A DNA stretch of 64,000 bases from a virus: positions 1 through 64,000 of the IMG/VR virus record IMGVR_UViG_3300037294_000176. One strand, written 5' to 3'. Each line of letters starts with the position of its first letter. The stretch's first letter is position 1. Under the pieces are notes generated by a model, which saw only the letters and a program-made list of their open reading frames with translations, was not told the origin of the DNA and ran no database searches. Below are positions 7,019 to 55,642 of the stretch, piece after piece. Made by a program: the position numbers and the translations under genes.

Positions 7019-7397
7019 GCAAACTAGGTAGCGTCTATGGCCTACTTATGAGCGTAGATTAGCTAACGTACAATGGTCTTAGCTTAACCCCGTTAAATTA
7101 ACCCAAAGAGGTTTCCCCAGAGGTCACTCCCCACTCCTATCTATAGACGAAAGCCGATACTAGATGCTAAGGCTATCGCTCTTGCTTAGTCGAGTATCGT
7201 CGTCATCGTTCTCGACCAAGAGACGTAAACGTCTATAACTATTCCTAAAAGATATATTTAATATACTCTTTGTGGCAGTACGTCCTCGAGTTACTTGCAG
7301 TGAAAGCATACTAAGTGCTAGAAACTGTTGGAGGTCTTTTGGGGTAGTGTTTTTACTAATCCCTGTGTACCAAGTCCGTTACCGGAGAGGTACCTCA
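7019..7397 (+). promoter_or_regulatory. long non-coding regulatory region upstream of the terminase cluster
   Basis: About 380 bases with no convincing gene. It holds the 18-bp repeat at 7087-7104, a short hairpin at 7221-7234 (AGACGT, AA, ACGTCT) and an AT-rich imperfect palindrome near 7250-7270 that could serve as a melting region. A frame open from GTG 7272 exists but lacks a ribosome site and is not scored as a gene before 7398. Confidence 0.55.
7087..7104 (+). promoter_or_regulatory. 18-bp repeat, candidate phage RNA polymerase promoter, copy 1
   Basis: ACCCCGTTAAATTAACCC, one of four copies matching ACCCCGTTRAMTTAACCC. All four are intergenic, on the same strand, and upstream of a gene cluster. 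The core GTTAANTTAAC is an interrupted palindrome. Conservation and placement fit a promoter for the T7-like polymerase encoded at 50962; an operator role is an alternative. Confidence 0.65.
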
Positions 7398-16301: not shown

Positions 16302-17864
16302 ATGACTGTCGTTAACGCTGCTACAGCGTCAGTCAAGACAGTATCAGACCCTAACGCCGTCTACGAGACCCTTAAACCTCTGTGGCTCAAGAGTCGTGCT
16401 GCTTGCAGTGGTGAGCGGTTCGTTAAGGACTATGATGCCGCAATAGACGTTATTAATTTTAAAAACTTACTTATTCCCTTCTCGCCTTCAATGAGCGATA
16501 ACCAGTATAAGTTTTACAAAGCTGAAGCAGAATGGCCTGGGATCACTGCTCAGTACTCTAAAATGCTTGTAGGTGGTCTTCTCAGGAAGCCTCCTCAACT
16601 CACTCTCCCAGAAGGTGCTCCTGCTAACGCGAAAAACTGGATTTTATCCGAGTTCGGTAGAGACGATAGCTCGCTAATTTCTTTTCTAGAAGACGCGCTT
16701 GTAGAAGAAATTCAAACAAGTGGGCCTTGGATATTTGTTGACCATCCAAAGGTTGATAATGCAGACGCACTTAGCACTGAAGAACGAGAGGCTTTAAAGC
16801 CGTACCCTATTCTTCAACCAGCAGAATCGGTTATCAACTGGCGCTTCAGTGATAAAAAGTTTGGCAAATCAGTCTTAGACCGTGTTATTGTCAGAGGCCT
16901 CAGGGAGTCTTACACTAAGAATGAGTTCCACCCTACAATGTATGATGTGGCTAACGTTCACGAGTTAAACGAAGCGGGCCACTACCAGATACGAGTTTTT
17001 GAGCGTGTGTCCCCAATTACAAACTTGCCTGTGGTTGCGGGAAAGACTCAACAAGTTATTAATGATAATTCAGAATTTGTCTACAAAGAGACAATTGAGT
17101 TTCTTGTAAACGACAAGCCCCTCACATACATTCCCGCATGGCCTGTCAACGGTGCAATTGCGCCCACTGAGCCTATTCTTAGTGCGCTTATCGACAAAGA
17201 AGTTGCGCTGTACAATAAGATGAGTCGTCGTAACCACCTCATGTACGGCGCTGCGACATACACCCCTGTAATCTCGTCTAATATGGATGACGAGGCGTTT
17301 CAGACGGTCGTTAACAGCGGTCTTGGCAGTTGGCTACACCTCCAAAACGGAGACACAGCAACTGTACTCCCTACTCCAAGTGAACCCCTTGAGGATATGG
17401 AAAAGACCATTGCCGCCTCAATTGAAGAGATGGCTAAGCTAGGTATCAGAATGCTATCACCAGAAACGGCTCAGTCTGGTGTCGCGCTAGAGTTACGTAA
17501 TGCGTCCCAAACCGCGCAGCTAGGTACGCTCAATACTCGTATTAGCGAGGTGATGACTCAAATCATCACGTTCATGTTGAATTGGCGATACGACTTAAAG
17601 CTTAACCCTACTGAAGTTACCTTTGCCCTGTCTTCTGACTTTAATTCGACACCGCTTGGTGCAGACTGGCTCAGATTGGCTACTGAGTGGTATGAAGGAG
17701 GTCTCATTCCTCGTTCTGTATGGCTTACTATGCTGAAAATGAACGACATGATTCCACCCGACTACGACGATAAGCGAGGTCAAGAAGAAATTACGGCTGA
17801 CGAGACTATTCAGCCTAAACGTGACCTAGACTACAACCCTAAACCTCCTGTAGAGCCTGAGTAA
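16302..17864 (+). CDS. portal protein (DUF4055 type), 520 aa
   Basis: Dodecameric channel at the capsid vertex through which DNA and ejected proteins pass. The length, the N-terminal helical region with QYSKMLVGGLLRKPP, the long internal helix pattern and the C-terminal Pro/Asp-rich tail match DUF4055 portal-like proteins. It lies directly upstream of the MuF gene, the standard portal-MuF order. AGGAGTACC then ATG starts the next gene nine bases later. Confidence 0.8.
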   Translation: MTVVNAATASVKTVSDPNAVYETLKPLWLKSRAACSGERFVKDYDAAIDVINFKNLLIPFSPSMSDNQYKFYKAEAEWPGITAQYSKMLVGGLLRKPPQLTLPEGAPANAKNWILSEFGRDDSSLISFLEDALVEEIQTSGPWIFVDHPKVDNADALSTEEREALKPYPILQPAESVINWRFSDKKFGKSVLDRVIVRGLRESYTKNEFHPTMYDVANVHELNEAGHYQIRVFERVSPITNLPVVAGKTQQVINDNSEFVYKETIEFLVNDKPLTYIPAWPVNGAIAPTEPILSALIDKEVALYNKMSRRNHLMYGAATYTPVISSNMDDEAFQTVVNSGLGSWLHLQNGDTATVLPTPSEPLEDMEKTIAASIEEMAKLGIRMLSPETAQSGVALELRNASQTAQLGTLNTRISEVMTQIITFMLNWRYDLKLNPTEVTFALSSDFNSTPLGADWLRLATEWYEGGLIPRSVWLTMLKMNDMIPPDYDDKRGQEEITADETIQPKRDLDYNPKPPVEPE

Positions 17865-17872
17865 GGAGTACC

Positions 17873-20800
17873 ATGGCTGTCAATGCTAATACTGAAATTT
17901 ATGACAACATAGTTAATAGAGCGGCTATGATCCGGCTCTATGAAAGACGTGTCAATGGTAAAGTAGATCTTGTGCTTGACGGCCACAGAGTTCGCCTAGA
18001 TACCCTGGTTAAAGAAGCTAACATGTCCCCTAGAGGACTGGCTAGACTTCGGGAAGCTGTAGATCAAGAATTAGTGAAGACTTACAAGGAGGCGTTCTTT
18101 GCCTCTAAGCAGTCTTTGCTTTCTCTTGCTGCAGACCAGGTATCTTTTGCTTATCAAACTCTAGAGACGTCTGTTGGAGAAATCTGGCGCACAAAACGAC
18201 CTACTAGACGCGTTGCAGAGGAGCTAGTCCTAGAAAGACCCCTATTCAATGATATGACTCTTGAGCAGGGCTGGTCTGGGATCAGCAAATCTGAAAGAAT
18301 TCGTATTGAAATTATGATCCGGAAGGGAATAGCAAGTGGTGACAGTCCTGAAAAACTAGCCTTGGCTATTCGCAAAGGAAACATTCATAACATCTCTAGG
18401 AATAGCTCTCAAGGGCTCGTGGTTACAGCCATTACAAGTGTAACAACTCAGGCTGACCACGCGGTTTACGAGAGCAACGAGAAGGCCCTGCAGGGCTGGC
18501 AGTATGTAGCCGTCCTGGACAGCAGGACCACGCCTGTCTGCGTTCACCGTGACGGCCATATCTATGTGATCGGCGAGCGCCGGTACCTCCCACCGGCCCA
18601 CTTTAGGTGTCGTTCTACTACGCTCCCTGTTTTTAAATCCTGGGAAGATATTTCTAAACTAGAGGGTGTGGCTGAAGTACGTCGTAGAAACTTAGAAAGG
18701 CTTACTGATAAGCAGAAAGCTTTCTACGATGGTCAAACACCTATGAAGGAAAGTTACGACACTTGGCTAAGACGTCAGTCAACTGTTGTACAAACAAGAC
18801 ACTTAGGTGACTATCAAAAAGTCCAGCTGTTTAATTCTGGGGCACTGACTGTTGATAAATTTACGAACGCAGAAGGTAACTCTATAGGTATTCGTCAACT
18901 TCGTGCAATGACGGACTCCGGCTACGTGATTCCCAATGACACTCGTAAGTTTGCAGCAGCAAAACAGAAGTTAGACAGTATGCAGCTTGGAGCCTCTAGT
19001 CCAGAGGACTTTTATAATAATCCAAAGCTCAAGAAGACGTTAGTTGATTACTACATTCTTCAAGCAGGTGAGCTAGACGGTACTCTAGCTCTGACAAACT
19101 ACCGAGGCACGTTGATACCATCTAAATCGGCAGTAAAAAAGCGCGTCCTGACTTCTCCCCCAAGAGATGATCAACTTGTTTTTAACCCACATACAGGGCG
19201 ATACGAAGATGTTAGACTCTACCAACCGAATCCAGCAGTCCTTGAAAACAACCTCAAGCGCGTTAGAACAAGTGAGGCACTTAGAAAAGAGGACAGAGAC
19301 TTCATTGAAGATATCTCAAACACTCTTTCTTCAAAGATGTCTATTAACCAGCGTGCAGTGGTTGTTGATAATCTTCGGATTATATTCACTCGGGCGAGGT
19401 CTGATGGAAAGCCTTGGAATAATTTTAAGGCCGTAGTTCAGGCTCAATTAAAGTTTGACATTATGAATACGTCAGACTACATTGAGACACAGCTTAGACG
19501 CAACACGGATGTGCTAAAAAAGCTACTTCAGGATAACTACGTCGACCCCGTGCTAGGTACAGTGCAGCTCGATGATCTAAGTAAGAATTTTGTTAAAAAC
19601 ATTCGTGAGAGAAACAGATGGGAAGACGCTGTTGCGCCTAAAATTGCCAGAGAGCTTCGGCCTCTTATCAGTAGTGAACTGCCTCTTGTTATTAGCGCTA
19701 GGCTTTCTAATGCTGATCTGCACCAATTTTACCTTAGGTTCGCACATCGACTGGCTCTTAATGACGGGCCAGATAGGGACCAATTGGCTGTTGCCCTAGG
19801 GCGCGATCTCTACAACCTTGCAAATCTTAACGGGAGCCGTACCCAGTGGTATGAAACCGGTCTTAAAATTCTGAGCAGCAAAAAGGTAGAGAAGTTCTAC
19901 AAGGTTGAAACTTTTGGCGTTCAAAAACGCCGAATGAAGAGCCAACTGAGTGGTAGCTATTTTGGACCTTACTACGACACTTTGGCCTACAATATACGTG
20001 TCACAGACCCTCGTATCCAGCGCTATTCAAAGCTTTCTAGAAGTGTTGATCTGGGTTTACGTGTAGGTGTTATTCAAAAAGATAATCGATTGATCTTTAG
20101 ACAGGGTTTTAAAACCTACTTCATCGATCGAGGGGTTCTTGGACTAGAGGATACAAGAATACCTATTACCTCTACCAACTCGTTTTCGGATTTTCCAGAA
20201 GAGCTTGTTGATAAGGATTTAGTGGATGCCTTGACTTGGGCGTCCGCCTCAGAATATCGCATTGATGAGGATTACTATGACTTTGTTAAGAAATTACTCT
20301 ATTTTGAAGATGATAAAGGCTCTGCAAAGTTTTACAATGATGCTAACGAATATCGTAAGTATATTGCTTCTCGTGGTGATGCTTACGAGCGATTCAAAGC
20401 TATGGACTGGCTTCGAGTTTCAAATCGCGCCTTTTCTAATCACGCCTTTGTTGATCATCGCGCTCGTATCTATGAACGTGGCCTCATTGGCCCTCAGGCA
20501 GGTGAAACTTTCCGACCCTTCTTAAACACTGTAACTAGTAAAAAGTTTGATCCCGAGGGTTTTAAAAACTATGAAGATCAGATTGGATCGTTCTTAGGTG
20601 GCCTTGACGACTACTTTGAGGGTAGAAACAGCTCGTTGACAATAACGGGGCGTCAAAAAATTGCAGAACGACTCCGACCTGAACTGGTGAAGATTGGCAA
20701 CCACATGTTACGTGGCAAACCAGCTGACATCAGAGCAGTGTTAGAGTCCCCTGTTGCATCACGTATTCATGGCGAAGAGCTAGGAAAGTTTTACCGGTTT

Positions 20801-22501
20801 GCTATCGAGTCTGCTAAGATTGACACCTACTTAAAGGGTGACTACTCTAGACGGTCTTTAGAGCGGCTACGAGACTATGACATAAGTCTTGCCCTTGAGC
20901 AGGATGCATCGTCGTCTGGTGCTCAAATTATTGCGTTAACCACACGTAATAAGCAGCTTGCTGAACTAAGCAATGTTGTACCTACAACTCAAAAGCGTCG
21001 TCTCTATGATGAGATTGCAGCGTCTACTTACAATGATCCTCGCTTCAGAAAACTTAACGAGAGGCTTGGTCTTACAGAGATTGATCTGCGTAAGGCAGCT
21101 AAGGCGCAGAACATGGTAACATTTTATGGCGCTGGTGAGAAAACTGGAATACTGAGCGTTGAAGGTAAACTAGCTAAGATCTTGTCCAAAGACGGCAACA
21201 CGTTAGTCGTAAAGGCTAGCGACCGAGACATTGTTTTGAACGACATCGATGCAAGAATTGCGCGTGTAGCTAGGTTCGATAAAGAAGGTGCGGAAGAGCT
21301 GAAGGCCCTCAGACAAAACGTTCGAGACATCTTTAACAAAGGACTTGATCCTGGGGACGACATCATGGAAGAACTATACTTCTTAGACCCCAAAACTAAA
21401 GACTTAGTCAACAAGATGAGCCAAAACTACGAAAGAGTCGTTACACCAGACGACTTCAAACTTATAGCTAGGATCATGAGCGAACAACTTGCTGAGCAAG
21501 TCCCTATTCTCAAAGACTTTACAAAGTTTTTTGGCAGACTCGCTGAAGCTTACTTGTTAAATGCTAAACCAGCTAAAGCTGACTTTGACTGGTTGTCTAT
21601 AGGTAAGACGGCAGTCCTTGGCAGTAAGCGAAAAGGCTATACGTTGCCTAAAGAGGCGAGTGAGCTGTTAGGTATTAAGTCTAATGAACCACTGTCTGAA
21701 AAGCTTTTAAAACGACTTGCTTTTTGGAACCCTAAAGGTAACCTACGAGACATCATTTATGGCGTTGACAGTCCTGCTGCTAGACGTACAGGCGGTAAAT
21801 ACTTTAAAGTTGAATTCTTAGACCTTGTCAAGCTTAACGAGATTGAAATCTTCTACGCTAACAAGCTTCCGAAATCTTGGACAACTGTACCCTGGGTAAA
21901 CTTCGATGGAAAAACAATTGAACAACGTTTCACACAATCTTTCGAGGAAAGACTTAGCTACAAAGATGTTAACGGTAACTATGTTAACAATATCCTTCAA
22001 GTGTCTCAGAAGACCGAGGCGACTTGGTGGGAACAGGTTATCAATAAAGATGGCAAGATCAATGACATTGCGGATGCAACTAAAGCCCGTACCGCGTATG
22101 CCGTTAATGGAAACCACTCAAACGATGCTACCCTAGTCAAACAGTTTCATCTCTATGGCAAGGCTACTAATGTTCAAACTTCCACTATTCACGACGCCTT
22201 TTTCACTAATGCTGCTGACATGCTTGAGTCACGTAAGGCATTACGAAAAATCTACGCTCGTTCGCTTGAGGCTGAGTCAATCAAGAAGACCCTTGATGAG
22301 ATGCGTGCAAGAGGCTTACCCGAGGAAATTTATAAAAAGTTTCTCGAAGAAGCTATTGTTTCAGGACTAATTCCTGTTGCAGGTAAGTCAAGAGTCGGTG
22401 GAAGACTTCTAACCAAAGATGATATACTGACCGTTGAAGAAATTTTAAGGGAAGTTCCTACAGGTTTCCGAGATGATTATGGTTGGTATGGTGTTGGCTA
22501 A
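17873..22501 (+). CDS. MuF minor head protein fused to a T7/N4-type single-subunit RNA polymerase, 1542 aa
   Basis: N-terminal part: a helical segment then a MuF domain at about residues 180-250 (C223-VHRDG, PPAHF, C246-RS). The C-terminal half carries the full motif set of single-subunit RNA polymerases. DHRARIY at 861-867 followed by GPQAGE equals the T7 DWRGRVY/NPQGND element. Motif A is DASSSGAQ at 1011-1018 (D1011 = T7 D537). Motif B is R1073, K1077, M1081, Y1085-G (= R627, K631, M635, Y639 with identical spacing). HSND at 1415-1418 equals the T7 HSQD block. Motif C is HDAF with D1441 (= D812). All catalytic residues are intact. MuF proteins reside inside the capsid near the portal, so I infer a packaged, injected polymerase for first-wave transcription. 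The MuF segment 18487-18606 has GC-rich codons unlike its flanks. A polymorphic toxin, usual for long MuF tails, is not indicated. Confidence 0.85.
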   Translation: MAVNANTEIYDNIVNRAAMIRLYERRVNGKVDLVLDGHRVRLDTLVKEANMSPRGLARLREAVDQELVKTYKEAFFASKQSLLSLAADQVSFAYQTLETSVGEIWRTKRPTRRVAEELVLERPLFNDMTLEQGWSGISKSERIRIEIMIRKGIASGDSPEKLALAIRKGNIHNISRNSSQGLVVTAITSVTTQADHAVYESNEKALQGWQYVAVLDSRTTPVCVHRDGHIYVIGERRYLPPAHFRCRSTTLPVFKSWEDISKLEGVAEVRRRNLERLTDKQKAFYDGQTPMKESYDTWLRRQSTVVQTRHLGDYQKVQLFNSGALTVDKFTNAEGNSIGIRQLRAMTDSGYVIPNDTRKFAAAKQKLDSMQLGASSPEDFYNNPKLKKTLVDYYILQAGELDGTLALTNYRGTLIPSKSAVKKRVLTSPPRDDQLVFNPHTGRYEDVRLYQPNPAVLENNLKRVRTSEALRKEDRDFIEDISNTLSSKMSINQRAVVVDNLRIIFTRARSDGKPWNNFKAVVQAQLKFDIMNTSDYIETQLRRNTDVLKKLLQDNYVDPVLGTVQLDDLSKNFVKNIRERNRWEDAVAPKIARELRPLISSELPLVISARLSNADLHQFYLRFAHRLALNDGPDRDQLAVALGRDLYNLANLNGSRTQWYETGLKILSSKKVEKFYKVETFGVQKRRMKSQLSGSYFGPYYDTLAYNIRVTDPRIQRYSKLSRSVDLGLRVGVIQKDNRLIFRQGFKTYFIDRGVLGLEDTRIPITSTNSFSDFPEELVDKDLVDALTWASASEYRIDEDYYDFVKKLLYFEDDKGSAKFYNDANEYRKYIASRGDAYERFKAMDWLRVSNRAFSNHAFVDHRARIYERGLIGPQAGETFRPFLNTVTSKKFDPEGFKNYEDQIGSFLGGLDDYFEGRNSSLTITGRQKIAERLRPELVKIGNHMLRGKPADIRAVLESPVASRIHGEELGKFYRFAIESAKIDTYLKGDYSRRSLERLRDYDISLALEQDASSSGAQIIALTTRNKQLAELSNVVPTTQKRRLYDEIAASTYNDPRFRKLNERLGLTEIDLRKAAKAQNMVTFYGAGEKTGILSVEGKLAKILSKDGNTLVVKASDRDIVLNDIDARIARVARFDKEGAEELKALRQNVRDIFNKGLDPGDDIMEELYFLDPKTKDLVNKMSQNYERVVTPDDFKLIARIMSEQLAEQVPILKDFTKFFGRLAEAYLLNAKPAKADFDWLSIGKTAVLGSKRKGYTLPKEASELLGIKSNEPLSEKLLKRLAFWNPKGNLRDIIYGVDSPAARRTGGKYFKVEFLDLVKLNEIEIFYANKLPKSWTTVPWVNFDGKTIEQRFTQSFEERLSYKDVNGNYVNNILQVSQKTEATWWEQVINKDGKINDIADATKARTAYAVNGNHSNDATLVKQFHLYGKATNVQTSTIHDAFFTNAADMLESRKALRKIYARSLEAESIKKTLDEMRARGLPEEIYKKFLEEAIVSGLIPVAGKSRVGGRLLTKDDILTVEEILREVPTGFRDDYGWYGVG
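18487..18606 (+). other. GC-rich island inside the MuF domain
   Basis: About 120 bases encoding residues 206-244 use CTG, CAG, GCC, GTC, GGC and CGC almost exclusively, while both flanks use AT-ending codons. The reading frame is continuous and the island covers the most conserved MuF residues. A gene-conversion patch from a GC-rich MuF homologue would explain it. Confidence 0.65.
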
Positions 22502-22507
22502 AACGTG

Positions 22508-22525
22508 ACCCCGTTAAATTAACCC
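22508..22525 (+). promoter_or_regulatory. 18-bp repeat, candidate phage promoter, copy 2 (capsid genes)
   Basis: ACCCCGTTAAATTAACCC, identical to copy 1, in the 126-base gap between the MuF-polymerase gene and the scaffold gene. It is followed by a potential hairpin (AGCGG..GTG / CAC.CCGCT, about 22529-22563) ending in TTTT, which may act as a 5' stabiliser or attenuator in the leader of the capsid mRNA. Confidence 0.65.
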
Positions 22526-22627
22526 AGGAGCGGTAGTGGGTAGTTGTACTATTCACTCCGCTTTTGATTTACATTACGAGATTGTATCTCTTATCACCTA
22601 CTAGGCTGTGCCTGAAGGAATCAAAAT

Positions 22628-23332
22628 ATGTCTACCGACCTCGAATTGACCGCTGAAGAACAGACCAACATCGATGCTGGCTTGAACAAAAACGGTACGC
22701 CTAAAGAACCAAGGACGATCCTTACTGAAGAAGAAAAGATCGAAGCTGCAGTAGCCGCTCGTGTCGCTAAAGCTAAAGAGAGCTTAGACAAAGCGTTTGC
22801 TGAACGTGACGATGCCCGCAAGCAAGTAGCTGCCTTCGAAGAGAAAGAAAGACAAGCTGAACTCAAACGTTTGGAAGAAGCTGGTGAATACCAGAAAGCC
22901 GCCCAACTACGTGTTGATGCCGCTGAAGCAAAAGCTGCTGAGATTCAAGCACGCTTAGACGCTTCGGAGGCTAGGACTGTTGAACTTACTCGCGATAATT
23001 CTCTACGTGCTGCAATGTCCACTTACACTTTCCGCTCAGAGAAGGCTCACAGAATGGCCTTTGACGATATCGTTGAACAACTGGTCAAAGATAAGGATAA
23101 CAACTGGGTTCATAAATCTTCTATTAGTATCGAAGCTGCCGTCAAGGCTTTCGCTGATGACGAAGCTAACTCCTTCTTGTTCAAGGCTAAGACCTCATCC
23201 GGGTCCGGTGACACAGCTGTGAAAAAGACAGATGTCGAGAAGAAACCTACTTCTCTGTTCCAAATGTCTCAAGCTGATGTTCTTGCTGCCGCTGCGAAGG
23301 GCTCTCTTAGGAAAGAGAGACGCCCTCGTTAA
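22628..23332 (+). CDS. capsid scaffolding protein, 234 aa
   Basis: Lies directly before the major capsid gene. Residues 25-120 are a charged Ala/Glu/Lys/Arg coiled coil, followed by a helical hydrophobic stretch, a flexible linker and a basic C-terminus (RKERRPR), the usual arrangement for scaffolds that bind capsid protein through a basic C-terminal tail. No protease motif is visible. AAGGAATCAAAAT precedes the ATG. Confidence 0.8.
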   Translation: MSTDLELTAEEQTNIDAGLNKNGTPKEPRTILTEEEKIEAAVAARVAKAKESLDKAFAERDDARKQVAAFEEKERQAELKRLEEAGEYQKAAQLRVDAAEAKAAEIQARLDASEARTVELTRDNSLRAAMSTYTFRSEKAHRMAFDDIVEQLVKDKDNNWVHKSSISIEAAVKAFADDEANSFLFKAKTSSGSGDTAVKKTDVEKKPTSLFQMSQADVLAAAAKGSLRKERRPR

Positions 23333-23348
23333 ATTTAAAGGAATATGA

Positions 23349-24536
23349 ATGACTGTTATTACTGACCTGCCGGGCGCAACTAACGACGTCCTGCAGAGCG
23401 CTCTCTCGGGTTACTCCGATGAAGCGTACACGAATGCTCGTAAACTTTCGGGTACTGGGATTGTTGGTTCCAACCCTGACATTGACGTCAACACCGAAAC
23501 CTATATTGGTCAGGTCCGTTGGCACAAGCCTCTGAACCCTGTCGTCAACGTTGCCTCGCTGACAAACTCCGCAGATGGTGCGCGTACTGGTTACGCCTCC
23601 GACTACCTGCGTTACGTCAAGAGTGTCCGTACGCACGGTGCAGAAAAAGTTAACATGGCGCAGGTTGTTACCCGCGTTGATGGACTAGCTAAAATCGGTC
23701 GTGACTTTGGTGAAACCAAGGCTCAAGACGAACACGACGCTATCCTGTCGGTTCTCAAAGGCGTTGCTGTCTCTGAGGCCCTGGCTGGTGGTGCTCAAGG
23801 CACCGGCCAAGTCGGTCTTGGTGGCCAAACGTTTGATAACGATCCAACGAACAAGCGTCATGGTTTCTACGTTGACCTCGGTGTTGACAAAACCGTAGTT
23901 GGAGCCACGGCTTCGGTTCAGGGCGCTGCTCGTGCTGAGTCGTTCCTCCGTGCCTTTGGCATGGCCTACAAGGATTACGAGCCCTCGTTCGCGTACCTTG
24001 TTACGTCGCCTGAGACCATGGCCTCGCTGCGTTCGGCTAACCTGGTTGACCAGGATCGTGTTGTTGACGGTACGGTTGAATTCCAGACGATCTTTGACGG
24101 CAAGTTCCGTTTGGTCTCGACTCGTGCAAACCAGTCAATGTCTTCTGCTGATCTGGCTAAAGTTAACAGCGGACCCGGTGTTGATATTGTTGGTACCAAG
24201 ACTTCCTTCATTGTGCTTCCAGGCGCGCTGGCAATGGAAGGTCTTGAAGTTCCAATGGAGACTGAGATTGAACGTGATGCTGCCTCCTTCATGGGTGGTG
24301 GTACGACTGAAATCTGGTACCGTTGGGGTTACGTTATTGCACCCGCTGGTTACGACTGGCAGGGTAGTGAGCAAGAGTTTGCTTCAAACGGCGCTTACAT
24401 GGGTGTCAATAACGCTGCTACCGACGATAACACGACGCTGGCTGCTGCTGGTCTCATCACTGACATCCGTGGTAACTGGAAGCGTAAGACTGCCTCGGCT
24501 CTGTCGCTTGGCATTCTGCCTATCTTCCACGGCTAA
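23349..24536 (+). CDS. major capsid protein, 395 aa
   Basis: Position after scaffold, length and composition (Gly/Ala/Val-rich, even distribution, RWGYVIAP-type strand near residue 320, many small strands) fit a major capsid protein. Codons are strongly biased to C-ending and G-ending optimal forms compared with neighbouring genes, as expected for the most abundant product. AAAGGAATATG precedes the start. The fold is probably HK97-like, as for all tailed phages. Confidence 0.87.
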   Translation: MTVITDLPGATNDVLQSALSGYSDEAYTNARKLSGTGIVGSNPDIDVNTETYIGQVRWHKPLNPVVNVASLTNSADGARTGYASDYLRYVKSVRTHGAEKVNMAQVVTRVDGLAKIGRDFGETKAQDEHDAILSVLKGVAVSEALAGGAQGTGQVGLGGQTFDNDPTNKRHGFYVDLGVDKTVVGATASVQGAARAESFLRAFGMAYKDYEPSFAYLVTSPETMASLRSANLVDQDRVVDGTVEFQTIFDGKFRLVSTRANQSMSSADLAKVNSGPGVDIVGTKTSFIVLPGALAMEGLEVPMETEIERDAASFMGGGTTEIWYRWGYVIAPAGYDWQGSEQEFASNGAYMGVNNAATDDNTTLAAAGLITDIRGNWKRKTASALSLGILPIFHG

Positions 24537-27702: not shown

Positions 27703-30700
27703 ATGTCAGGAGTCATTATTGACGTTGACACAAAGGCGGATGGTGCTAAACGCGACCTAGTCAGCCTTAATAGAAGTCTTGCCTCCATGGTCACAAACGC
27801 CAACAAAACAAAAGGTGCTGTTGGCGGCGTTTCAGGTAACAACTTCAAAGATCTGACTAAAAACGTTCGAGAGTCTAACATAGCGCTCAACTCGTTTGGC
27901 AATAACAAGGCTTTAACTAACGTTGCAGCTAACACTCGCAGCTTGTCTAACGATATGCGTGGACTAAAGCTTGCAGCTGTGGGTGCCGGTATTGCTTTTG
28001 CTTCTGCTTTTGCTGGTGCTAAGCTAAATAAGGTAGCTGACGATCTTACAAACATTCAAAACAGGCTTAAGCTTGTAACTGAAAGCTCTGATGAGCTCCT
28101 GCTCCGTCAACGACAGTTGTTTGATATTTCTATCAAAACAAGAACCTCTTTCGCAGGGGCCGCTAGCGTTTACGTAGACCTGAGCAAGTCTATGAAACTG
28201 GCAGGGGGTTCGGCGGAGGAGACCCTCAAAGCAGTGACCACGCTGCAGCAGGCAGGGGCGCTGTCAGGCAGCAGTGTCGAGGGGCTGAATGCCGCCATGA
28301 TCCAGCTCGGACAGGGCCTCAGTAGTGGCACTTTAAGAGGCGAAGAGCTTAGCTCTGTCTTGGAACAAATGAAGTACTTTGGGGATGGACTTGCCAAATC
28401 CTTGAAGGTTACAAAGGGTGAATTGCGTGAGCTGGCAGCTGAAGGTAAGCTTACTCCAGAGGTTGTACTTAAAGCTCTCAGGGAGATGTCAGAGGGGACA
28501 GCAAAAGATTTTGCTAAAAGCAATGCTACAGTAGCTGCTTCGACGGCGACACTCAGACAGGCAATTGCTTATACCGTCGCTGATGTTAATCAGTATCTCG
28601 GGTTATCAAACAGTATTGCTAGAGGTATTTTAAAGAACGCTAACGGAATGGTCGGGGCTAGTGATAACATTATCACCAGCTTAGAGCTCATCAGACGTAC
28701 TACGAAGAACTACCTTAGAGAAGTTTCAACTGAGAATCCTTTCAAGTCTACTCTTGTTGCAGCTCTTACCCTAAAGATCAACCCTTTAGACAGTTTTGCA
28801 AAGGCTCAAGCAACGTCTAAGGTACAAGAGTTTGTCAGGCAAGTCCAAAAGTTGCTTGGCAAGGACGACACTGAAATTGAGGTCAAAGCTAAACCAACTG
28901 GCCTCGACAAGATGTTCAGTCGCTTCCGCATGTTCACTTCTAAAGGTGATGAAGCTGCTAAGGCTATTAGCGCCTCTGACAAGATGGGAGAGCGGGTTGA
29001 AAACGCTGCAAGACTGAGTGCAGCTATTTTTGATACAATTAAGACCACGGCTAACGAGTTTAGCAGACTCCTTCCTATCATTCAGAAACCACTCAACACT
29101 TTTTACAATCAGCTTTTTGAGTACGTCGTTATCCAAGACAACCTTGGTGATACGATGGTCATTAAGCTTCTACGACCCTTCCAGAGGGCCGCTGAAGGTG
29201 TTCAGGAAACGCTGACGTTGTTTGCTTCTGGCGATACTCGCATGGAGCGTGCTTACGTCAAGCTTTTTAGCTCTGATAGTCTAGTCACATTTACAGACAA
29301 CCTCTTTAAGCTTAACCGAGTCAGAGAAAGTACACGGTTTGATAACAAGAGCTTCCTTGGCCAGAACTTTATCTTCAACTTCCGAAAAAGCTCGCAAGAA
29401 GTAGAAAACTTCTTAGTTCAACTTGGTCTTATGAAGAACGAGCTGGACATTGAGTTTCCTGTTGCTAGGATTGCTAAAGAATTCCAGACTTTTGGCAGAG
29501 TTGTTGTACGCGTGTACGATGATCTTATTGCACCCGATCTTGAGCCAGCTATCCGTAGCATCAAACGCCAACTGAAAAACCTCAAGAAAGCTGTTGTAAG
29601 CGCTATTAAGAACACCTTTACACAGGTTGAAGGCCAGAAGATTGGTAACGCAATTGCCGGTGGTATCACTAAGGCTATTACTAGCGTGTTTGACTTCTGG
29701 GAGGCTAGCGAAAGCTTCAGTCTTGTCAAGATGTTCAACACGGATGCCCTGGTTGAATCCTTTATTAACGCGTTTAAAGCAATTGGCAAGTTTGTAAGTG
29801 GTTTCTTTTCAGGCTTGTTCTCAGGTCTCAAAGGTACCCTTTCTGATGACTTCATTGGGCAGATGTTTGGCAGTATCGAGAAGGTGGCAAAGAGTAAACT
29901 TCGAGCAGTAGAAAAACGGATTGATGACTTTGGCAAAAATGTTAAAGGAACCTTCTTTGATATCTACGACGCGGTTGTTGGTAACTCTTACTGGCCTGAT
30001 ACGATTGACGGAGTTGTCGATTACACTAGTCGGCTGTTTAATGCTAAAGGCCCTATCAAAGATTTTAAGAACTTTGTGTTGTCAACCTTCGACGGCCTTA
30101 CACAAACAGTGGACAAGCGCCTAGCCCTTGCTAAGCGTAGAAACTTTCAGGCAATCTACACGCTTCAAAAGATTAAAAAGGACCCTGGTAATACTGTTGA
30201 CATTGTCAAGAAATACGCCAAAGGCTCTCTTGTAAAGTCGGTCATTGAGTACGAGCTAAATTTCAACAAGAGCTCGTTTGACAAAGCCGCTGGATATGCC
30301 GCTAAAACGTCCCTTAAGATTCTCAACTACGTTGAAAAGGGTCTGCCTAAGTCTACGCGTGTGGTTGAGCGTTTTGCCAAGAGGACTAAGGAAGCGTTCT
30401 TTGATATCTACGACGCGGTTGTTGGAAACTCTTACTGGCCTGATACGATTGACGGAGTTGTTGGGTATACTAGCAACATCTTCAAGACTAACAGCACGCT
30501 TGAAGAATTTAAGCGTAGAACCTTAAATACTTTTAAGACAATTTTTAAAGACTTAAACGCTAGCTTCGGTGGTGGTGGACTTTTTGATGGATTTGCAAAG
30601 CAGCTCCAGTCAGTTGATTGGGGTCAAGCCTTCAAAACGCTAACTGGGTCTCTTGGGGCTTCTCTTTTAGCCACGCTATTCCTAGTGTTTGGCAACGTTC

Positions 30701-33700
30701 AGATGAAGTTAACTGCTGCCAGTTACTTCTTCTCTTTATTGAACGTCTCGTTGAATGGCGCTCTTACTGCTCTTGCTCCGGTCCTTGGAACGTCCGCAGG
30801 TGTGCTTGGGGCGCAGTTCGTTGAGCAATTTGTCAAAGGTCTACTTAAGACTTTTGATGCACTGGCTTCGTCTTTACCTTTACTGCTAGAGTCTTTCTTA
30901 AAGGAGCTTGTACCGTTCGGCCTGTTTGACTCGTTGTTTGGCACAATCTTCAAAAGTATTCCAATACTGTCAAACAATCTTGTTTACGGCATTCTTGCTG
31001 TTGCCGCTGCTTACGCCTTTTTGTTCAAGAAAACAGGTGCAGGTACTATCATGGACCTGGTGTTTGGATCTCGTGCTAGAGGCAAGGAAGGCACCAAAAC
31101 TTACAAAGCCGCAACTGATGGTATTTTACCCTACGTCAAAGCTATGGCAGTAGGTTGGATACCTGGTTACGTTACTGCAGTAGGTCCCGCGCTGGCGAAA
31201 GCTAGTGGTGGTGCTGCTTTTACAAGTTACTTTGGTCAACTTTTCGGTAATCCAAAACTGGCGCTCCTTGGGGCTGCTGCACTTTCAACCTCAATGCTTA
31301 AAAGCGTTAGCATCTTCGAAGCGGCATTCGTAGGTGTTCCTCTCTTAGCTTCAGCGATTCTTGGTAAGGCTGGCGGCTTAAGGTTTTTAACAGAGTCTAC
31401 AGGTCTCATTAGTAGTATTGGCTTAAATATAGCAAAAGCTATGCAGAGCTCAATACTCAAGAACGCACCTGAAGGTGGCATGCTCGCTAGCTTCGTCAGT
31501 GGTGCTATGTTCAAGGGCGAAGAGGTTCAGACAAAAGTCCCAGGGCCAGTTGCAGATGCATTTGGTACGCTGTTCAGCAATCTTGCACAGTTACCAATTA
31601 ACCTTGCTAAGAATAAAAATCTGTATGGGTCTGGTAAGCTCGGCTTCATGGCAGCGTTGTTGACGCAGCAAATTGAAGGGACTAAGCCTGACGACTTTAT
31701 AGGTCCAATGAATAAGAAGACTGTGAGTCTTAGAAAGTCGCTGCAAGACGCTGTAGGTAAAATCCTTGACTTTGACATAGGTGGCAGGGGTTCGTTAAGA
31801 GGTCGCTTTGCAGCTGTCAGTACCGCACTTGCACTTGAAATGGGCAACGTTAGAGCGCTGTTCAGCAGAAACGTGGGCGTTGGAAACAAGTTTGCTACAG
31901 GACTAAACACGGCGCTTACAAGTCTTGCAGTTGTTGGTGGTAAGGCCCTAGGAGCGTTTGCAAGAGTTGTCGTTAGTGTAATGGGTCTGCTGAAGAACCA
32001 GTTTGTGCTTATTGCGTTGTTCAGTCTGTTGTTCACTGGGGTGGCTGTTGCTGCAGAGACCTCAGGCAGTGCTGTAAACGGTATTGGCGCGGCATTTGGA
32101 GGTATTGGTCTTACAATAACGTCAGCTGCTCTTGCGTTAGTAGCCTTCGGTGTAGCATTCAAGTCTATCAGTAAATTCAAGACAGGACGGGACTCGTTTA
32201 TAGGTGAGGCAACACGTGAGAAGCTTCAAGCGTTCGAAGAGGACCTTCTTGGAAAAGCCGCCGACAAGGTAGCAAGTTTCAAGGGACCTAAAAAGAAAAA
32301 GAAAGCATTAGATGCGTCGTTATCGTCAGATGTAGTTCGACAGGTTGCAGCCCAAACAGAGTTGCTTCGAGCTGAGGGTGTACCAGGAGCTAACAAGGCA
32401 GGTATTGAAGCTGCTGGCGCGTATCTTAAGGGTCTTGCCAGCAAGGGAAAAGAGGGCTTTATAGCTTCGTTCAAGAGAGGTACCGAAGTCGTAAAAGGCA
32501 ACGGAGAAGAAAAGAGCAGTCCCTTTGCCGCTACTCAGGCTGCTGCCGTTGGCCTTTCATCTGCATTTGAAGCGTTCAGCGGTGATAAGACCAAGGCCAA
32601 GCTGGGCGGCGTCTTCAAGCAGTTCAGCGTAACAGGTGTACTAGCTTTCAAAGACGCAGGAGCAGCTTTAACTAGCTTTAAGACTGTTGGTAAAGCTACA
32701 GACGGTGTGCTTGTTGCTGTTCTACGCCTTTTGAGTGGTGTCATAGCCGCTGCCGTAACAGGCTTCAGAGCGCTGGCTGTGACGATTTGGACTGCAATTG
32801 CCCCATTTGCTGCTATCATTGGTATTGTGACAGCGGTCGTTGCTGGTGTCGGTCTTCTTGGTGTGATGATCTTTGGTAAAGGCAACACCTTTTTCGACAA
32901 GTTAGCGTTTGCGTATGACAAGATCAGGCAAATTCTTGGCTTGAGTGCGGTCACAGGCACCGGTCGCAGAGAACTCTTAAGCAATACGTTAAAAGACGTC
33001 AAAGTCGGTGATCAAACATTCGACTTCAGTGGCTCTATTGAAAACACTGATTTTGAGTCGATGGGCAAAGACACCTTTGGTATTGTTTCTGAACAGGCCA
33101 AAGAAACTGCTGAGGCCCTCAAAGAGCTCAACAAGCAATTTATCAAACGTGGCTTCTTGACTGACGCTGAAAAGGCTGAGGCAGAGGCGCTTGCAACTAC
33201 GCAACGCGAATTGCTAGCCAGACAGAAACAAAAGCCTGAAAGAAGTATCAGAGAACGGGCCGATGACGCTCAGAAAGAGCTAAACACTGTAGACAACTCT
33301 CTGGGTCAACGTATTCAGAATATGCTGGGCGGGCCAGGAAGTGATGTCAACAGAGCTCTTGCATTAGGCTCAAGTGGTTTAGACTTGTTCTTTAGAGGTA
33401 TCGGAGACAGTTTAAAACCTGTTGATACGGCGCTGAAGTCGTTTGGGTCTGCACTACATAAAGGCTCAGACGTGTTTAAAACTTTCTTCAGGAACACGTA
33501 TCGTGCGGCTTCTATCGTTCTTAGAAAAGCTGATCAGGGCGTAAATAGTGCGCTTGGAGGTAGAGGCAGAAGTCAACGTCAGGTCACTGCAGCGCAAGCA
33601 GTTAAAGACTCTGCGGACAGAGTTGCTCCTTTCGAAGCTTTTCTAGAGCCGGAAGAGCTTGAGGCCTACAACAAAGCGGTAGCTGAGTTCAGAGATGCAC

Positions 33701-36700
33701 AGACAGCTGCCAACGCCGCTGAGCTACGCTTTACGGGTTTTGATCGAGATGGTAACGTAGAAACACGTGTAGAGTATGAGAAGCGTCGAGTAAAATTAAT
33801 TGCCGAAGCTTCTAAGGAAATGAAAGAGTTTGCCGCTGCAACTGAGAAAGCTGAAAAAGCCGGTCAGAAAGCTGCGGATATCAAGATTCTTACTGACAAG
33901 CTGACAATCGGTTCTGCCAACATTAAGGATCAACTGGGAATTGATCTTGGGGACAAGGGTCAAAAGTTTTTAGGCAATAAAGAGCAATTTGATAGACTGA
34001 CTAATAGTGCCAGTCTAGTGGCTGGTCTTAACGCAAAAATCCTAGTAGGAGTGAGCCTCTCTGAGAGGGCAACTAACGCAGCAAGAGTTCTTAGTGAAGT
34101 AGCTGCAGCAAACGCCGAGTCAACTAGAATACAGGCTGCGGCTTTATCTGGTACAGCGTTTGATCTTTACGCCGAGATATCCGGATCTAACGCAACTGAC
34201 GTTGGCAACTTATTTAAAGTTGACCCTGAGGCTTACAAAGAGTTTACTAAGACTGCAGATTCGCTAGATCAGACCAGGACAGCGCTCGCTAACGTAGTGT
34301 TGACTACTCCTGGTGCAAGAGAAGAACTTGCACGTCTTCAGGGAGAGATAAAAACCCTGGGGGAAGAGCTTGTTTCGCTGACTCCTAAGGCTGGCAGTTT
34401 AGAGTCGATAAACGACAAGTTTCAGGAGTTTAAGATTGCAGAAATTGACTTAGGCCAATTTGTGTACATGTCTCCTGGATCTGTCAACAGCATTAGGGAC
34501 TCCTTCAAGCATGTAGCGAAGGCTACTATTGACGTCAACGCTAAACTCTCCAGGCTTGGTGATGACGATAAGAGTCTTCAAAACTACATTGATGCTCTTC
34601 GTCGACTACGTGGGGAAATTGAGGCGGTTCAATCAGCTGCTAGCCATGCAAGAAATGAATCAGTTCAAAGGGCGTTATTCGAAAACGCTGATGATCCTGT
34701 AAAGAGGGCGTTAGCAGTAGGTAGAGCCGCCGGTAGGATTCCTAACGATTACGTGCTTAGTAGTGCTGATAGATCGGCACGGTTCAGTCAAGACACATTT
34801 GAGTACGTAAACGCTACGGCAAACGTAGATGACCAGTTTGCTTCTGGATCTACCATTTCTGAAGCAGCTGGCAGAAGACTTGCTGCAGAGAGAAGACTTG
34901 GAACATATGATAGCGCCCCTTCAGCTAACAAGGAAAAGAAAACAGACACTCCCCTCAAGCTGTCGGATGCTCTTGGCGCACTGTCAAACTCTGGTATTGC
35001 TATTGCAGCTGCTAGCTTCAGTCGTCTTGGTGCAATTGCTCGTAGTAGCCTCTCTGCTATCGGTATTGATATTGCTAAGCTCGATAAGCGGATTGAAGAC
35101 GCTCCTCCAGGTGCCGATCTAGCCAGTATATTTGATCAACGCAAAGCGCTGTTTGACCGGGCTAGAGAGCAGCTTCTAAACTCCTTGTACACTACAGGTC
35201 AGGGAATTTCTGAAGCTCTCGGTAGGTTAGGCGTTGAGGGTTCGGCTATCATCAGCCGTATGAACGCCACTCAACTTGAAGGTCTTCTTGAGATTGACAA
35301 GTCTACAGAGAGGTTAAAGTCTCAGCTGCTGGACACCACCGATCTTGAAGAGATTGTCAAGCTAAATGCCGAACTTGCTGACATTGAGCTAGAGCGGAAC
35401 AGAGCCCTACAGAAAACTAACGCTGCGTTTGAAACCAGATTAGAAACAGTGAATGAGCTGTTTGGATCATCGCTTGACACAAACTCGTTTGCTTTCTTTG
35501 GTAATGAGCTTACTTTACAGTTGTTTAGAATTGCAAGTGCAGCCAAGGCAACGATGGAGGAGTTCTTTAGAAACGGTGCTACTAAAACTGAAGACCAGGT
35601 AAGAGTTTTCTTCAGCAGTATGCGTAAGATGGCTCAACAGGGTGAAGTCCTGGACATCTTCAACACCTTTTCTCAAGGAATGGCAGATGCGCTAGAGCGT
35701 GGTGCTAAGAGTGGTTTTGAGAGGTTCCAAGAGCTTTTCGATGGTGCAACTTTCAGAGATTACCTGAATATTGATGCAGGTACACGAAGAGGCATTTCTC
35801 AAGAAGCCGTGAGTAAACAAGCCTTAGTCAGTCTCTCAGACGCCCCTGGTCTGTCTAAAGCGATGGCGGATATCATCAACAGGGAGTACGGTGAAAACGG
35901 AAGATCGGCGACAGAAGTTATGAGACTTCTAGAAGGTCTTCCTGGCTTTGCTGAGACAATGGCTACCCCGCTTCAAGCTGTCACCACGTCACTGGACCGT
36001 GTAACCGCATCTAACATTGAAGTGGCTAGGTCAAACAGAGGTCTCCCTGAGATCTTAGGTGCTGCAATTGCTGATAACACTGACGTGACCGCTTTCGATT
36101 CAATTGAAGTTCGTGCTGACAGAGCTGTAGATCCCGCATTATTTGAGAGAGGCTCTGTTACTAGTGCTGTTGATGCGCGTCTGGCAACTCCTGACACTAC
36201 CGCTCAAACTGCAGCTGCAGCTGCTGCTACTAGCGTTCAAGACACTCTGAGGTTACTGCTGGCTAACCTCAATATTGGCATTGACCCTGAGACAATCAAT
36301 CTTGCTAGCTCTAGACAGCTAGCCCAAATCGATGCACTTGCTGGAAGGTTCGCTTTTTATCAAGCAGAGATTGCGTCGTTGTTGGCGGGTGAGGGCGACC
36401 TCGACTCAGAGGCTAGAACGTTACGTATTCAAGAGCTCAGTACCGCAAGTAAGCTACTACAAGACAACGTAGATGACCTTGCCACAGCGATTGAAGATGC
36501 AGCGTTCAGGGCAACTGAAGCGGGAGACAACCTTGCTGATGGTGTCAGAAGTGACTTTACAGCCTCGTTGAAAGACTTTGCTAAAGGCAAGGCCACTTTC
36601 AGTGAAGCTGCCGAAGGGCTGTTAGATAACCTTACCAGCAGTATCGTAGATACGTTTATTGACGGTCTTACTAACTCTCTTATGGGTGAAGGTAGCTTGT

Positions 36701-46311: not shown

Positions 46312-46560
46312 TCTCCCAGTGAAGGTTTGTCCAGGACAAGCAACTTGAGCGAGGCGAGGGGACGATCATCGACGCAACTCGGAGGTCGTCCCTGGACCGC
46401 GCTATTTCGTGTTGGTAAAGAGAATAACGCTGCTAAAGTATCGGGCATAACTGTTACGCAGACCCCGTTGACTTAACCCCTTTAGACGCCCTCCCTTACT
46501 AAGGCGATAGACGAACCTACTAAGCGTAAAGTTCTTCTCATTACCACCTAAAGGAAATTC
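46312..46560 (+). promoter_or_regulatory. intergenic region with promoter candidate and hairpin
   Basis: 249 bases without a gene between the tail and lysis clusters. It contains a potential stem GGACGA (46360-46365) with TCGTCC about 25 bases later, which could act as a structured terminator without a T run, and the third 18-bp repeat at 46462-46479. Confidence 0.5.
46462..46479 (+). promoter_or_regulatory. 18-bp repeat, candidate phage promoter, copy 3 (lysis genes)
   Basis: ACCCCGTTGACTTAACCC, differing from copy 1 at two positions (G for A, C for A). It lies 82 bases before the holin start. Position ahead of the lysis cluster fits late transcription by the phage polymerase. Confidence 0.6.
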
Positions 46561-47764: not shown

Positions 47765-47789
47765 ATTTGCGGGAAACGAGGTATCTTAT

Positions 47790-48176
47790 ATGAAACCTCA
47801 GAAAGGATATCCAATGGTTTACAATGCTATACAGTCACCTGTAACCGCAACTCTAATTGACGCTAGAAAGCTTCTATCTAATGGTTGGACTAAGTACACG
47901 CATGCGGTTAACCAAGAAGGTGAATCCGTGCCTGTCGACGCTGAAGATGCTTGTAGCTTTTGTATCACAGGGGCTATTAAAAGGAGCTCTCTCGCAAGTG
48001 TCGCTTTTGGCTATGATGCGGGAGTCGCTGCAAGAACCGCCGTGAGATCTGTACTCTATCAAAACCTAGGCAATCCTAGTATTGTGGAGTTTAACGATTC
48101 AGAGTTAACCACGAAGAACGGGGTACTAAACGTTATCTCTGCTGCAATTGCGCTGAGTAAAAAGGAAACAACATGA
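47790..48176 (+). CDS. DUF6197-like phage protein, 128 aa
   Basis: Shows ARKLLSNGWTKYTHAV, then a DAEDACSFCITGAIKR block and a final V..FND....T..GVLNVISAAIALS helix, the order of DUF6197 proteins common in phages. ATG 47814 has a better site (AAAGGAT) and would remove eight residues; ATG 47790 follows GAGGT. Function unknown. Confidence 0.65.
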   Translation: MKPQKGYPMVYNAIQSPVTATLIDARKLLSNGWTKYTHAVNQEGESVPVDAEDACSFCITGAIKRSSLASVAFGYDAGVAARTAVRSVLYQNLGNPSIVEFNDSELTTKNGVLNVISAAIALSKKETT

Positions 48177-50648: not shown

Positions 50649-50653
50649 CCACA

Positions 50654-50682
50654 CGACCTGAACATGTCGCTAAACTGTTTTC
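50654..50682 (+). terminator. hairpin element 2
   Basis: GAACA (50660-50664) pairs with TGTTT around loop TGTCGCTAAAC (first pair G.T). It shares CGACCTGAACATGTCG.TAAACTGTT with element 3, 51 bases downstream, and the pattern with element 1 at 47732. Its role as terminator or RNA processing site is inferred. Confidence 0.55.
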
Positions 50683-50704
50683 ACATGAAGTTTAAAACCC
50701 CTCC

Positions 50705-50740
50705 GACCTGAACATGTCGTTAAACTGTTCACGGCCTTTT
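50705..50740 (+). terminator. hairpin element 3 (terminator-like)
   Basis: GAACA (50711-50715) pairs with TGTTC (50727-50731) around loop TGTCGTTAAAC; a T-rich tract (TTTTATTTTT) follows after six bases. Direct repeat of element 2. It lies upstream of the small membrane protein and RNA polymerase genes. Confidence 0.6.
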
Positions 50741-54239: not shown

Positions 54240-54257
54240 ACCCCGTTAACTTAACCC
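54240..54257 (+). promoter_or_regulatory. 18-bp repeat, candidate phage promoter, copy 4 (replication genes)
   Basis: ACCCCGTTAACTTAACCC, one change from copy 1. It lies 43 bases before the SSB start codon. A possible hairpin follows (GTTGAGGTTA at 54261-54270 with TAACCAAC about 12 bases later), like the one after copy 2. Confidence 0.65.
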
Positions 54258-54299
54258 TCTTGTTGAGGTTAACACAAGTTCTAACCAACAGGTAATTAA

Positions 54300-54940: not shown

Positions 54941-55642
54941 ATGTTTATCTACGAAAAGTACATTGGAAGCGTTCGTGCTGACACCGAGATAAGAATTCGT
55001 TACGTTAACTACGTAGAGTTTTTAGAGCAGTCAGCAGACCACAGCATTTCTGTTAGTGAAGGCACGGGCGACAGACTACCAGTTGCCTCAATCCAAACTA
55101 GACAAGACCTTCTTAAGTGGCTAGTAAATCACCCTAGTGAAGTACTTTCAATGATGGGGAAACCTTCGCCTCACTCAGCGTTAGAGATTGAGCTAGCGAC
55201 TTACCTGAACAAGTCAAAAGGGAAAGAGCTGGTAGACAAGAACCTAAAAACAGCAGCAGCTGTAGGTAAGCCAGGTATTAGCGCAGTTCCTGTTATTGCG
55301 TTTGTGGCTCTCGGTGAAGCGATGGCTGACGGTGCTAAGAAGTATGGTGCCTTCAACTGGAGGGACACAGGAGTGACTGCAAGTGTGTTTGAAGAAGCAA
55401 TCTTCAGGCACTTTATGGATTACTTCGGAAACAGGAACGACTATGCTAAAGACAGCGGCATTCACCATCTTGCTCACCTTATGGCGTCTTGTGCCATTCT
55501 TTTAGACGCACAGGTCTATGGCATGCTAAATGATGATCGCGATAACGTAGATCAAGAAATCGACATCTACAAAATGGTCGAGACAATTAGGAACTATCAA
55601 TGTCGAGATACTGCTATGACGTCGAAACAGACGGTCTCCTAA
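54941..55642 (+). CDS. DUF5664 dATP/dGTP diphosphohydrolase-like protein (MazZ-related), 233 aa
   Basis: Residues about 105-195 match the DUF5664 pattern: GEAMADGAKKYGAFNWRD, FEEAIFRHFMDYFGNRND, DSGIHHLAHLMASCAILL. Members include MazZ, which hydrolyses dATP and dGTP in phages with 2-aminoadenine DNA, but the family is also common in ordinary phages. An N-terminal extension of about 95 residues is unassigned. The 3' end overlaps the DNA polymerase start by 43 bases. No PurZ is visible in the window. Confidence 0.72.
   Translation: MFIYEKYIGSVRADTEIRIRYVNYVEFLEQSADHSISVSEGTGDRLPVASIQTRQDLLKWLVNHPSEVLSMMGKPSPHSALEIELATYLNKSKGKELVDKNLKTAAAVGKPGISAVPVIAFVALGEAMADGAKKYGAFNWRDTGVTASVFEEAIFRHFMDYFGNRNDYAKDSGIHHLAHLMASCAILLDAQVYGMLNDDRDNVDQEIDIYKMVETIRNYQCRDTAMTSKQTVS

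Follow-up and report, generated by a model that had tools for sequence, protein, structure and literature searches.

Can a siphovirus carry its own RNA polymerase (RNAP) into the cell on a MuF capsid protein? The question is raised by IMG/VR virus record IMGVR_UViG_3300037294_000176, of which we analysed positions 1 to 64,000 (the window, 64,000 nucleotides). Within it, 17873-22501 is one uninterrupted frame of 1542 codons, whose product begins with a MuF/SPP1-gp7 domain and ends in a T7-family RNA polymerase; we call the gene MuF-RNAP. An earlier note on this DNA, which took the product for a candidate virion polymerase, had the frame, its coordinates and its length exactly right, and each motif it quoted lies where it was placed (C223VHRDG and C246RS in the MuF part; D861HRARIY, GPQAGE, D1011ASSSGAQ, R1073/K1077/M1081/Y1085-G, H1415SND and H1440-D1441AF in the polymerase part). 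The fusion protein is confirmed, with both domains real and matching their families more than chance would allow. A virus that carries it would probably deliver its own transcription enzyme together with its DNA.

The MuF identity of the N-terminal third, already claimed in that note, is backed by three independent libraries (Pfam, PHROGs and NCBIfam). Pfam Phage_Mu_F (PF04233) scores 43.3 bits against a curated cut-off of 29.6, and is above it in four diverged relatives too; NCBIfam phageSPP1_gp7 (TIGR01641) scores 59.2 bits against 39.65; and a match to PHROG 241 (head morphogenesis, E 4e-57) covers residues 1-346. Conservation was counted over 80 distinct uninterrupted fusions, the most distant of them 30% identical to the window protein, and the MuF residues D216, C223, H243, C246 and R247 are invariant in all of them. 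This part gave a confident structural model (predicted local distance difference test, pLDDT, 84), yet a fold search of the PDB returned no match below E 0.001. The gene order portal, MuF, scaffold and capsid (window 16302-24536) is kept in five genomes, and this synteny bears out the siphovirus context.

That the C-terminal part is a complete T7-family polymerase likewise holds, by profile score, fold, conservation and profile alignment to T7. Pfam RNA_pol (PF00940) matches the fusion at E 7.5e-11, with 41.9 bits against a cut-off of 22, and is also above cut-off in the roseophage DSS3_VP1 and three other relatives (L066, L162 and L182); PHROG 414 (RNA polymerase) matches at E 6e-18. An AlphaFold2 model of residues 353-1542, run with 58 sequences in the alignment, reached pLDDT 86 and a predicted template modelling score (pTM) of 0.81. 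It takes the right-hand polymerase fold, and in Foldseek every one of its best solved matches is a T7 or a mitochondrial RNA polymerase (E 4e-19 to 1e-15, probability 1.00; template modelling score of T7 RNAP up to 0.57 by target length). The polymerase had been placed at residues 800-1542; this identity stands, while the extent does not, as the well-modelled unit begins shortly after residue 353. In a library of viral models, the matches ran from a 1463-residue protein through free T7-like polymerases to N4-type virion polymerases. The first of these is 27% identical over the whole model and equals the DSS3_VP1 fusion in length (1463 residues).

Profile-profile alignment paired fusion residues 840-1526 with T7 RNAP 394-877 (probability 95% (94.9), E 4.6e-8, 469 columns), whereas hhalign against the N4 mini virion RNA polymerase (mini-vRNAP, gp50 998-2103) gave a probability of 0.2, a single-sequence target being a weak test of deep kinship. 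A profile search of the PDB gave weak T7 matches in which the D861-Y867 motif aligned to T7 DWRGRVY; searching with the single protein sequence gave PH1932 as the sole match, which is spurious. Pfam found no DxDxD double-psi barrel core, which marks two-barrel virion RNAPs of the P23-45, phiKZ and AR9 type, in the fusion, whose fold matches are of the T7 type. On sequence grounds, the MuF polymerase belongs in the T7/mitochondrial branch and not in the N4 vRNAP family; the parallel with N4 drawn in the earlier note thus stands as a functional likeness but not as sequence kinship.

The catalytic residues D1011, K1077 and D1441 are invariant (80/80), as are the ribose-selecting positions Y1085 (T7 Y639) and H1415 (T7 H784). 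Since T7 Y639 and H784 serve in ribonucleotide selection, the enzyme is expected to make RNA and not DNA. In motif B, K1074, K1077, M1081, Y1085 and G1086 never vary, and the predicted helix spans model residues 717-733, terminating at Y1085. Three of the motif B residues singled out beforehand (K1077, M1081 and Y1085) are therefore fixed throughout the family; the fourth, R1073, is variable, and K1074 had gone unnamed. All three segments of the fusion gene are under purifying selection (ratio of nonsynonymous to synonymous substitution rates, dN/dS, 0.03-0.13). As modelled, the polymerase fold and the active-site residues are intact.

Group I introns repeatedly interrupt the polymerase part of the gene in relatives (L058, L060, L065, L067, L072 and L077; L085 29081-29761). 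RF00028 is over its gathering score in 6/7 loci tested, and in EBPR siphovirus 1 an HNH gene lies within the split. The intron sites are in motif B (residue 1082/1083) and at other conserved sites; mobile introns commonly target conserved motifs of active enzymes. Five relatives (L049, L051, L052, L068 and L080) have in-frame insertions of ~100-280 residues at residue ~988 or ~1106. Inteins were rejected as their source, Pfam finding no Hint or homing domain, and the insertions are possibly accessory domains.

The window encodes a second polymerase, unmentioned in the earlier note: a free-standing T7-like enzyme that we call RNAP2 (Table 1). Its gene is present in every contig of at least 49.8 kb among the first 18 tested, those without one all being 47 kb or shorter, and in 13/13 further contigs; DSS3_VP1 also encodes a separate free RNA polymerase. 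The MuF polymerase is not a recent duplicate of RNAP2, as the two are less similar to each other by profile than either is to T7.

Two promoter-like classes have distinct placements in the genome. Class I (consensus ACCCCGTTAAATTAACCC) has five to seven sense-strand sites in 4/5 window-type genomes and two in G009, against ~0.1 expected by chance; the sites precede the terminase cluster and the lysis genes, directly follow MuF-RNAP, separate RNAP2 from ssb, and are also found near the right end. Class II (consensus GCGGAAAANNNNGTATCTTATATGA, based on 21 sites from 12 relatives and the window genome itself) is confined to two places, the stretch that separates the lysis genes from RNAP2 and the neighbourhood of the right end, and its 13-mer GTATCTTATATGA is nearly invariant over the collected sites. 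This class is unlike sigma-70 sites: the fixed 13-mer is contiguous, and the -35 region is not TTGACA-like. Around RNAP2, sigma-70-type sites show no excess (12 found vs 10.7 expected). When contigs of at least 50 kb were selected by the class II DNA pattern alone, 12/13 encoded MuF-RNAP. We infer that, as promoters for the virion polymerase, the best candidates are those class II elements that precede the RNAP2 cluster.

Neither class was found when DSS3_VP1 was searched for them. That phage has a class I-like element, ATAGGKTRCGTTAAAGAGGGG, different from class I, at 11 sites, and an exact 25-bp pair, GAGAAAACTAAGGCATCTATAATGA, ahead of its RNA polymerase cluster. Its eleven ATAGGKTRCGTTAAAGA-type sites (L086, 2249-46558) probably serve as the promoters for its own free T7-like enzyme. 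A search for hairpin promoters like those of N4 in the window phage drew attention to 3-nt-loop hairpins in the scaffold-gene leader, but these show no genome-wide enrichment and occur mainly there; class II is linear. Short hairpins with 3-nt NGT loops (window 22578-22590 and 22603-22613) lie between MuF-RNAP and the scaffold start, and are found in nearly all relatives, including DSS3_VP1 types. Their stems covary freely (GAGT-TGT-ACTC, AGAT-TGT-ATCT, GGGC-TGT-GCCC), and we regard them as a conserved signal.

Table 1. Features of the MuF-RNAP locus and of the elements discussed in the text (window coordinates).
Feature	Position	Strand	Remarks
MuF-RNAP fusion gene	17873..22501	+	1542 aa; 80 distinct uninterrupted homologous fusions known
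MuF / SPP1 gp7 domain, residues 145-250	18305..18622	+	PF04233 E 7e-11, TIGR01641 E 4.5e-16
Single-subunit RNA polymerase part, residues 353-1542	18929..22498	+	AlphaFold2 model and Foldseek
D861-H-R863-A-R865-I-Y867, T7 DxxGR counterpart	20453..20473	+	D861, R863, R865, Y867 80/80; profile-aligned to DWRGRVY
Motif A, E1009-Q-D1011-A-S-S-S-G-A-Q1018	20897..20926	+	Catalytic D1011 = T7 D537, 80/80; T7 profile alignment
Motif B / O helix, D1071...K1077...M1081...Y1085-G	21083..21136	+	K1077 = T7 K631, Y1085 = T7 Y639
N1412-G-N-H1415-S-N-D1418-A, T7 HSQD (H784) counterpart	22106..22129	+	H1415, N1417, D1418 80/80; S1416 79/80
Motif C, T-I-H1440-D1441-A-F-F	22184..22204	+	D1441 = T7 D812; H1440, D1441, A1442, F1443 80/80
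Portal protein, directly 5' of fusion	16302..17864	+	PHROG 145 E 6e-56
Scaffold protein	22628..23332	+	PHROG 206 E 2.5e-7
Major capsid protein	23349..24536	+	PHROG 247 E 8.9e-15
RNAP2, free-standing T7-like RNA polymerase, 750 aa	50962..53214	+	PF00940 E 1.3e-62; T7 RNAP in PDB E 1e-37
Class I element before terminase cluster	7087..7107	+	ACCCCGTTAAATTAACCCAGG, 2 mismatches
Class I element right behind MuF-RNAP, ahead of scaffold/capsid	22508..22528	+	Exact consensus; position kept in most relatives
Class I element before lysis genes	46462..46482	+	5 mismatches; syntenic in relatives
Class I element between RNAP2 and single-stranded DNA-binding protein gene	54240..54260	+	4 mismatches; syntenic in relatives
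Class II promoter-like element, first of RNAP2 cluster	47769..47793	+	GCGGGAAACGAGGTATCTTATATGA
Tandem copies of CGACCTGAACATGTCG(C/T)TAAACTGTT	50653..50679, 50703..50729	+	Inverted repeat GAACA/TGTTC; ~0.25-0.3 kb before RNAP2

What would such a protein do? In SPP1, one or two copies of gp7 are bound to the portal within the procapsid, and the protein supports the initiation of infection (PMC6316719, PMC5576092). We think it probable that MuF-RNAP is a virion RNA polymerase anchored by its MuF part, and that it starts a two-polymerase cascade. Judging from SPP1 gp7, the MuF part would take the fusion, in one or a few copies, to the portal inside the procapsid, and at infection the protein would be injected along with the first DNA. 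It would then transcribe the early region, including the RNAP2 gene, using class II or some other early promoter; the RNAP2 so made would use class I to transcribe the operons for replication, packaging, capsid and lysis. An injected polymerase transcribing early genes is, we infer, the best explanation, given the known portal location of MuF/gp7 proteins, the two-RNAP gene content and the two promoter-like classes.

Several points weigh against this. The presence of the protein in virions is deduced from the MuF domain alone. R1073, the counterpart of T7 R627, is R in 62 of the 80 fusions, M in 13, Q in three and A in two. Association does not assign class II to one polymerase, as 13/13 contigs that have it also encode RNAP2. 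A terminator-like hairpin with a T-run separates RNAP2 from the class II sites in most relatives, so that transcription of the RNAP2 gene would depend on read-through or on a different promoter. One such competing candidate is the tandem repeat 0.25-0.3 kb before RNAP2.

One could argue, while keeping the virion polymerase, that class II is read by RNAP2, or by the host RNAP with a special factor, and that the virion polymerase has its target elsewhere, such as the tandem CGACCTGAACATGTCG repeats. This account would fit both the constant company of RNAP2 and class II and the terminator-like structure behind the class II genes. The tandem repeats are also the closest elements to RNAP2, and their inverted repeat varies with compensation between copies (GAACA/TGTTC, GAGCA/TGCTC, GAGTA/TACTC); the element, GACCTGARYATGTCNNNAAACTRYTC, recurs at G000 69826 as a third copy, and twice in the relative G003 (54949 and 54984). 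However, the CGACCTGAACATGTCG repeat was not found upstream of RNAP2 in relatives (a diverged form lies elsewhere in G003), whereas class II is kept at that position, and we find this assignment of promoters rather doubtful.

Alternatively, the fusion might be an active polymerase with a late intracellular role only, its MuF part bringing it to procapsids or DNA at packaging while the host RNAP reads the early genes as in T7. The gene does sit within the late structural block, and the host enzyme could start the phage's own RNAP2, again as in T7. We nevertheless consider a purely late role unlikely, given that MuF/gp7 proteins are internal virion components supporting the initiation of infection, that class II is not sigma-70-like and that there is no excess of sigma-70 sites near RNAP2.

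It seems very unlikely that the polymerase part is mainly a DNA-pulling motor or ejection aid, which would pull the genome in by transcribing the first DNA, with specific early mRNA a secondary product. N4 couples early transcription to genome entry (PMC4496689) and SPP1 gp7 alters the fraction of virions that start infection, but two separate conserved promoter-like classes favour promoter-specific transcription; a motor and an early virion polymerase are in any case compatible rather than mutually exclusive. The least probable reading, to which we give hardly any weight, is a function-shifted C-terminal part (either inactive or a different kind of enzyme) retained structurally: the T7 R627 counterpart is lost in 18/80, overall identity to T7 is low and a long insertion separates motifs B and C relative to T7, but neither the other catalytic residues nor the two ribose-selecting positions ever vary, purifying selection is strong, the best fold matches are all RNA polymerases, and the mobile introns target the polymerase's conserved motifs, as is common in active enzymes.

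Compared with described systems, the early virion polymerase proposed here resembles in function that of N4 (Schitoviridae), where a single-subunit polymerase of the T7 superfamily lies within a large virion protein, gp50, and is injected as the early enzyme, with a second T7-like polymerase (N4 RNAPII) beside it in the place of RNAP2 (PMC4496689). The N4 vRNAP differs in lying between N-terminal injection and C-terminal encapsidation regions, without a MuF domain, in a podovirus with hairpin promoters. A survey of polyvalent proteins found N4-like vRNAP modules in N4-like phages only, and MuF fused to other enzymes (PMC5512222). P23-45 is a siphovirus, like the window phage, and has a virion RNAP (gp96) fused to a structural protein and a second, non-virion RNAP (nvRNAP, gp64), each with its own promoter motif (PMC10770324). 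However, its enzymes are two-barrel (double-psi beta-barrel, DPBB) polymerases akin to cellular RNAP, carried on the tape measure, whereas here a T7-type right-hand polymerase sits on MuF. SPP1 gp7 and the MuF-toxin proteins share the MuF domain, the gene position and the plan of a C-terminal cargo enzyme, but the cargo described comprises ADP-ribosyltransferases, RNases, RelA/SpoT and other toxins, and no RNA polymerase (PMC5576092, PMC5512222). Vibrio phage Peru-2 has a second T7-like RNAP as a separate gene (PMC13320782).

Relatives of the fusion are encoded on at least 558 stretches in IMG/VR. The only named phages that match it full-length are EBPR siphovirus 1 (JF412302; 59% identity) and the Noahvirus roseophages DSS3_VP1 and DSS3_PM1 (31% identity), all with the same gene order. 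Their fusions are annotated only as head, head morphogenesis or minor head proteins, the polymerase part being unrecognised. Pelagibacter phage Kolga has a MuF protein of 633 aa related to window residues 9-352 and a separate RNA polymerase gene; because its match stops at residue 352, the fusion is lineage-specific. Among 84,980 cellular genomes searched, matches occur only in two contigs of one metagenome-assembled Gammaproteobacteria bin. We thus rejected a prophage or host origin, and this near-absence suggests that fusion-bearing phages are lytic.

Other genes of the window phage include some with matches in DSS3_VP1, a phage with deoxyuridine-containing DNA (dU-DNA) (PMC12697855). A protein of 3274 aa at the tape-measure position (window 27703-37527) matches the tape-measure proteins of DSS3_VP1 and EBPR siphovirus 1, and its length implies an unusually long tail. 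A dCMP-deaminase-like protein (G000 65183-65620; L084 5183-5617) is 30% identical to the dCTP deaminase of DSS3_VP1, and a protein with a dATP/dGTP diphosphohydrolase domain is encoded at window 54941-55639. From these sequences, a modified-base genome is possible in the window phage.

The earlier note knew of no described MuF-polymerase fusion, and our search of 5.4 million open papers also found no description, although priority is not certain, as subscription papers, including the original roseophage description, were outside its scope. MuF-RNAP would be a virion RNA polymerase that arose through a new kind of fusion, and we did not find this route of delivery described. As a tentative but quite possible wider picture, a globally common siphovirus lineage, dU-DNA phages included, may carry a polymerase of the T7 type on its MuF protein at the portal, virion transcription having evolved there independently of N4 and of the two-barrel RNAPs; by reading a linear class II promoter, this enzyme would turn on another T7-type polymerase, which uses class I promoters, in a two-step cascade needing little or no host RNA polymerase.

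The known settings of virion RNA polymerases are few: the N4-like podoviruses, the giant phages and the tape-measure fusion of P23-45. If our reading is true, a T7-type enzyme on MuF is a further independent solution, in a large environmental siphovirus group together with the cultivated DSS3_VP1 and DSS3_PM1. It would also widen the cargo of MuF proteins from toxins to transcription machinery, provide a candidate polymerase-promoter pair (with class II), and offer a possible answer to how transcription starts in a dU-DNA phage.
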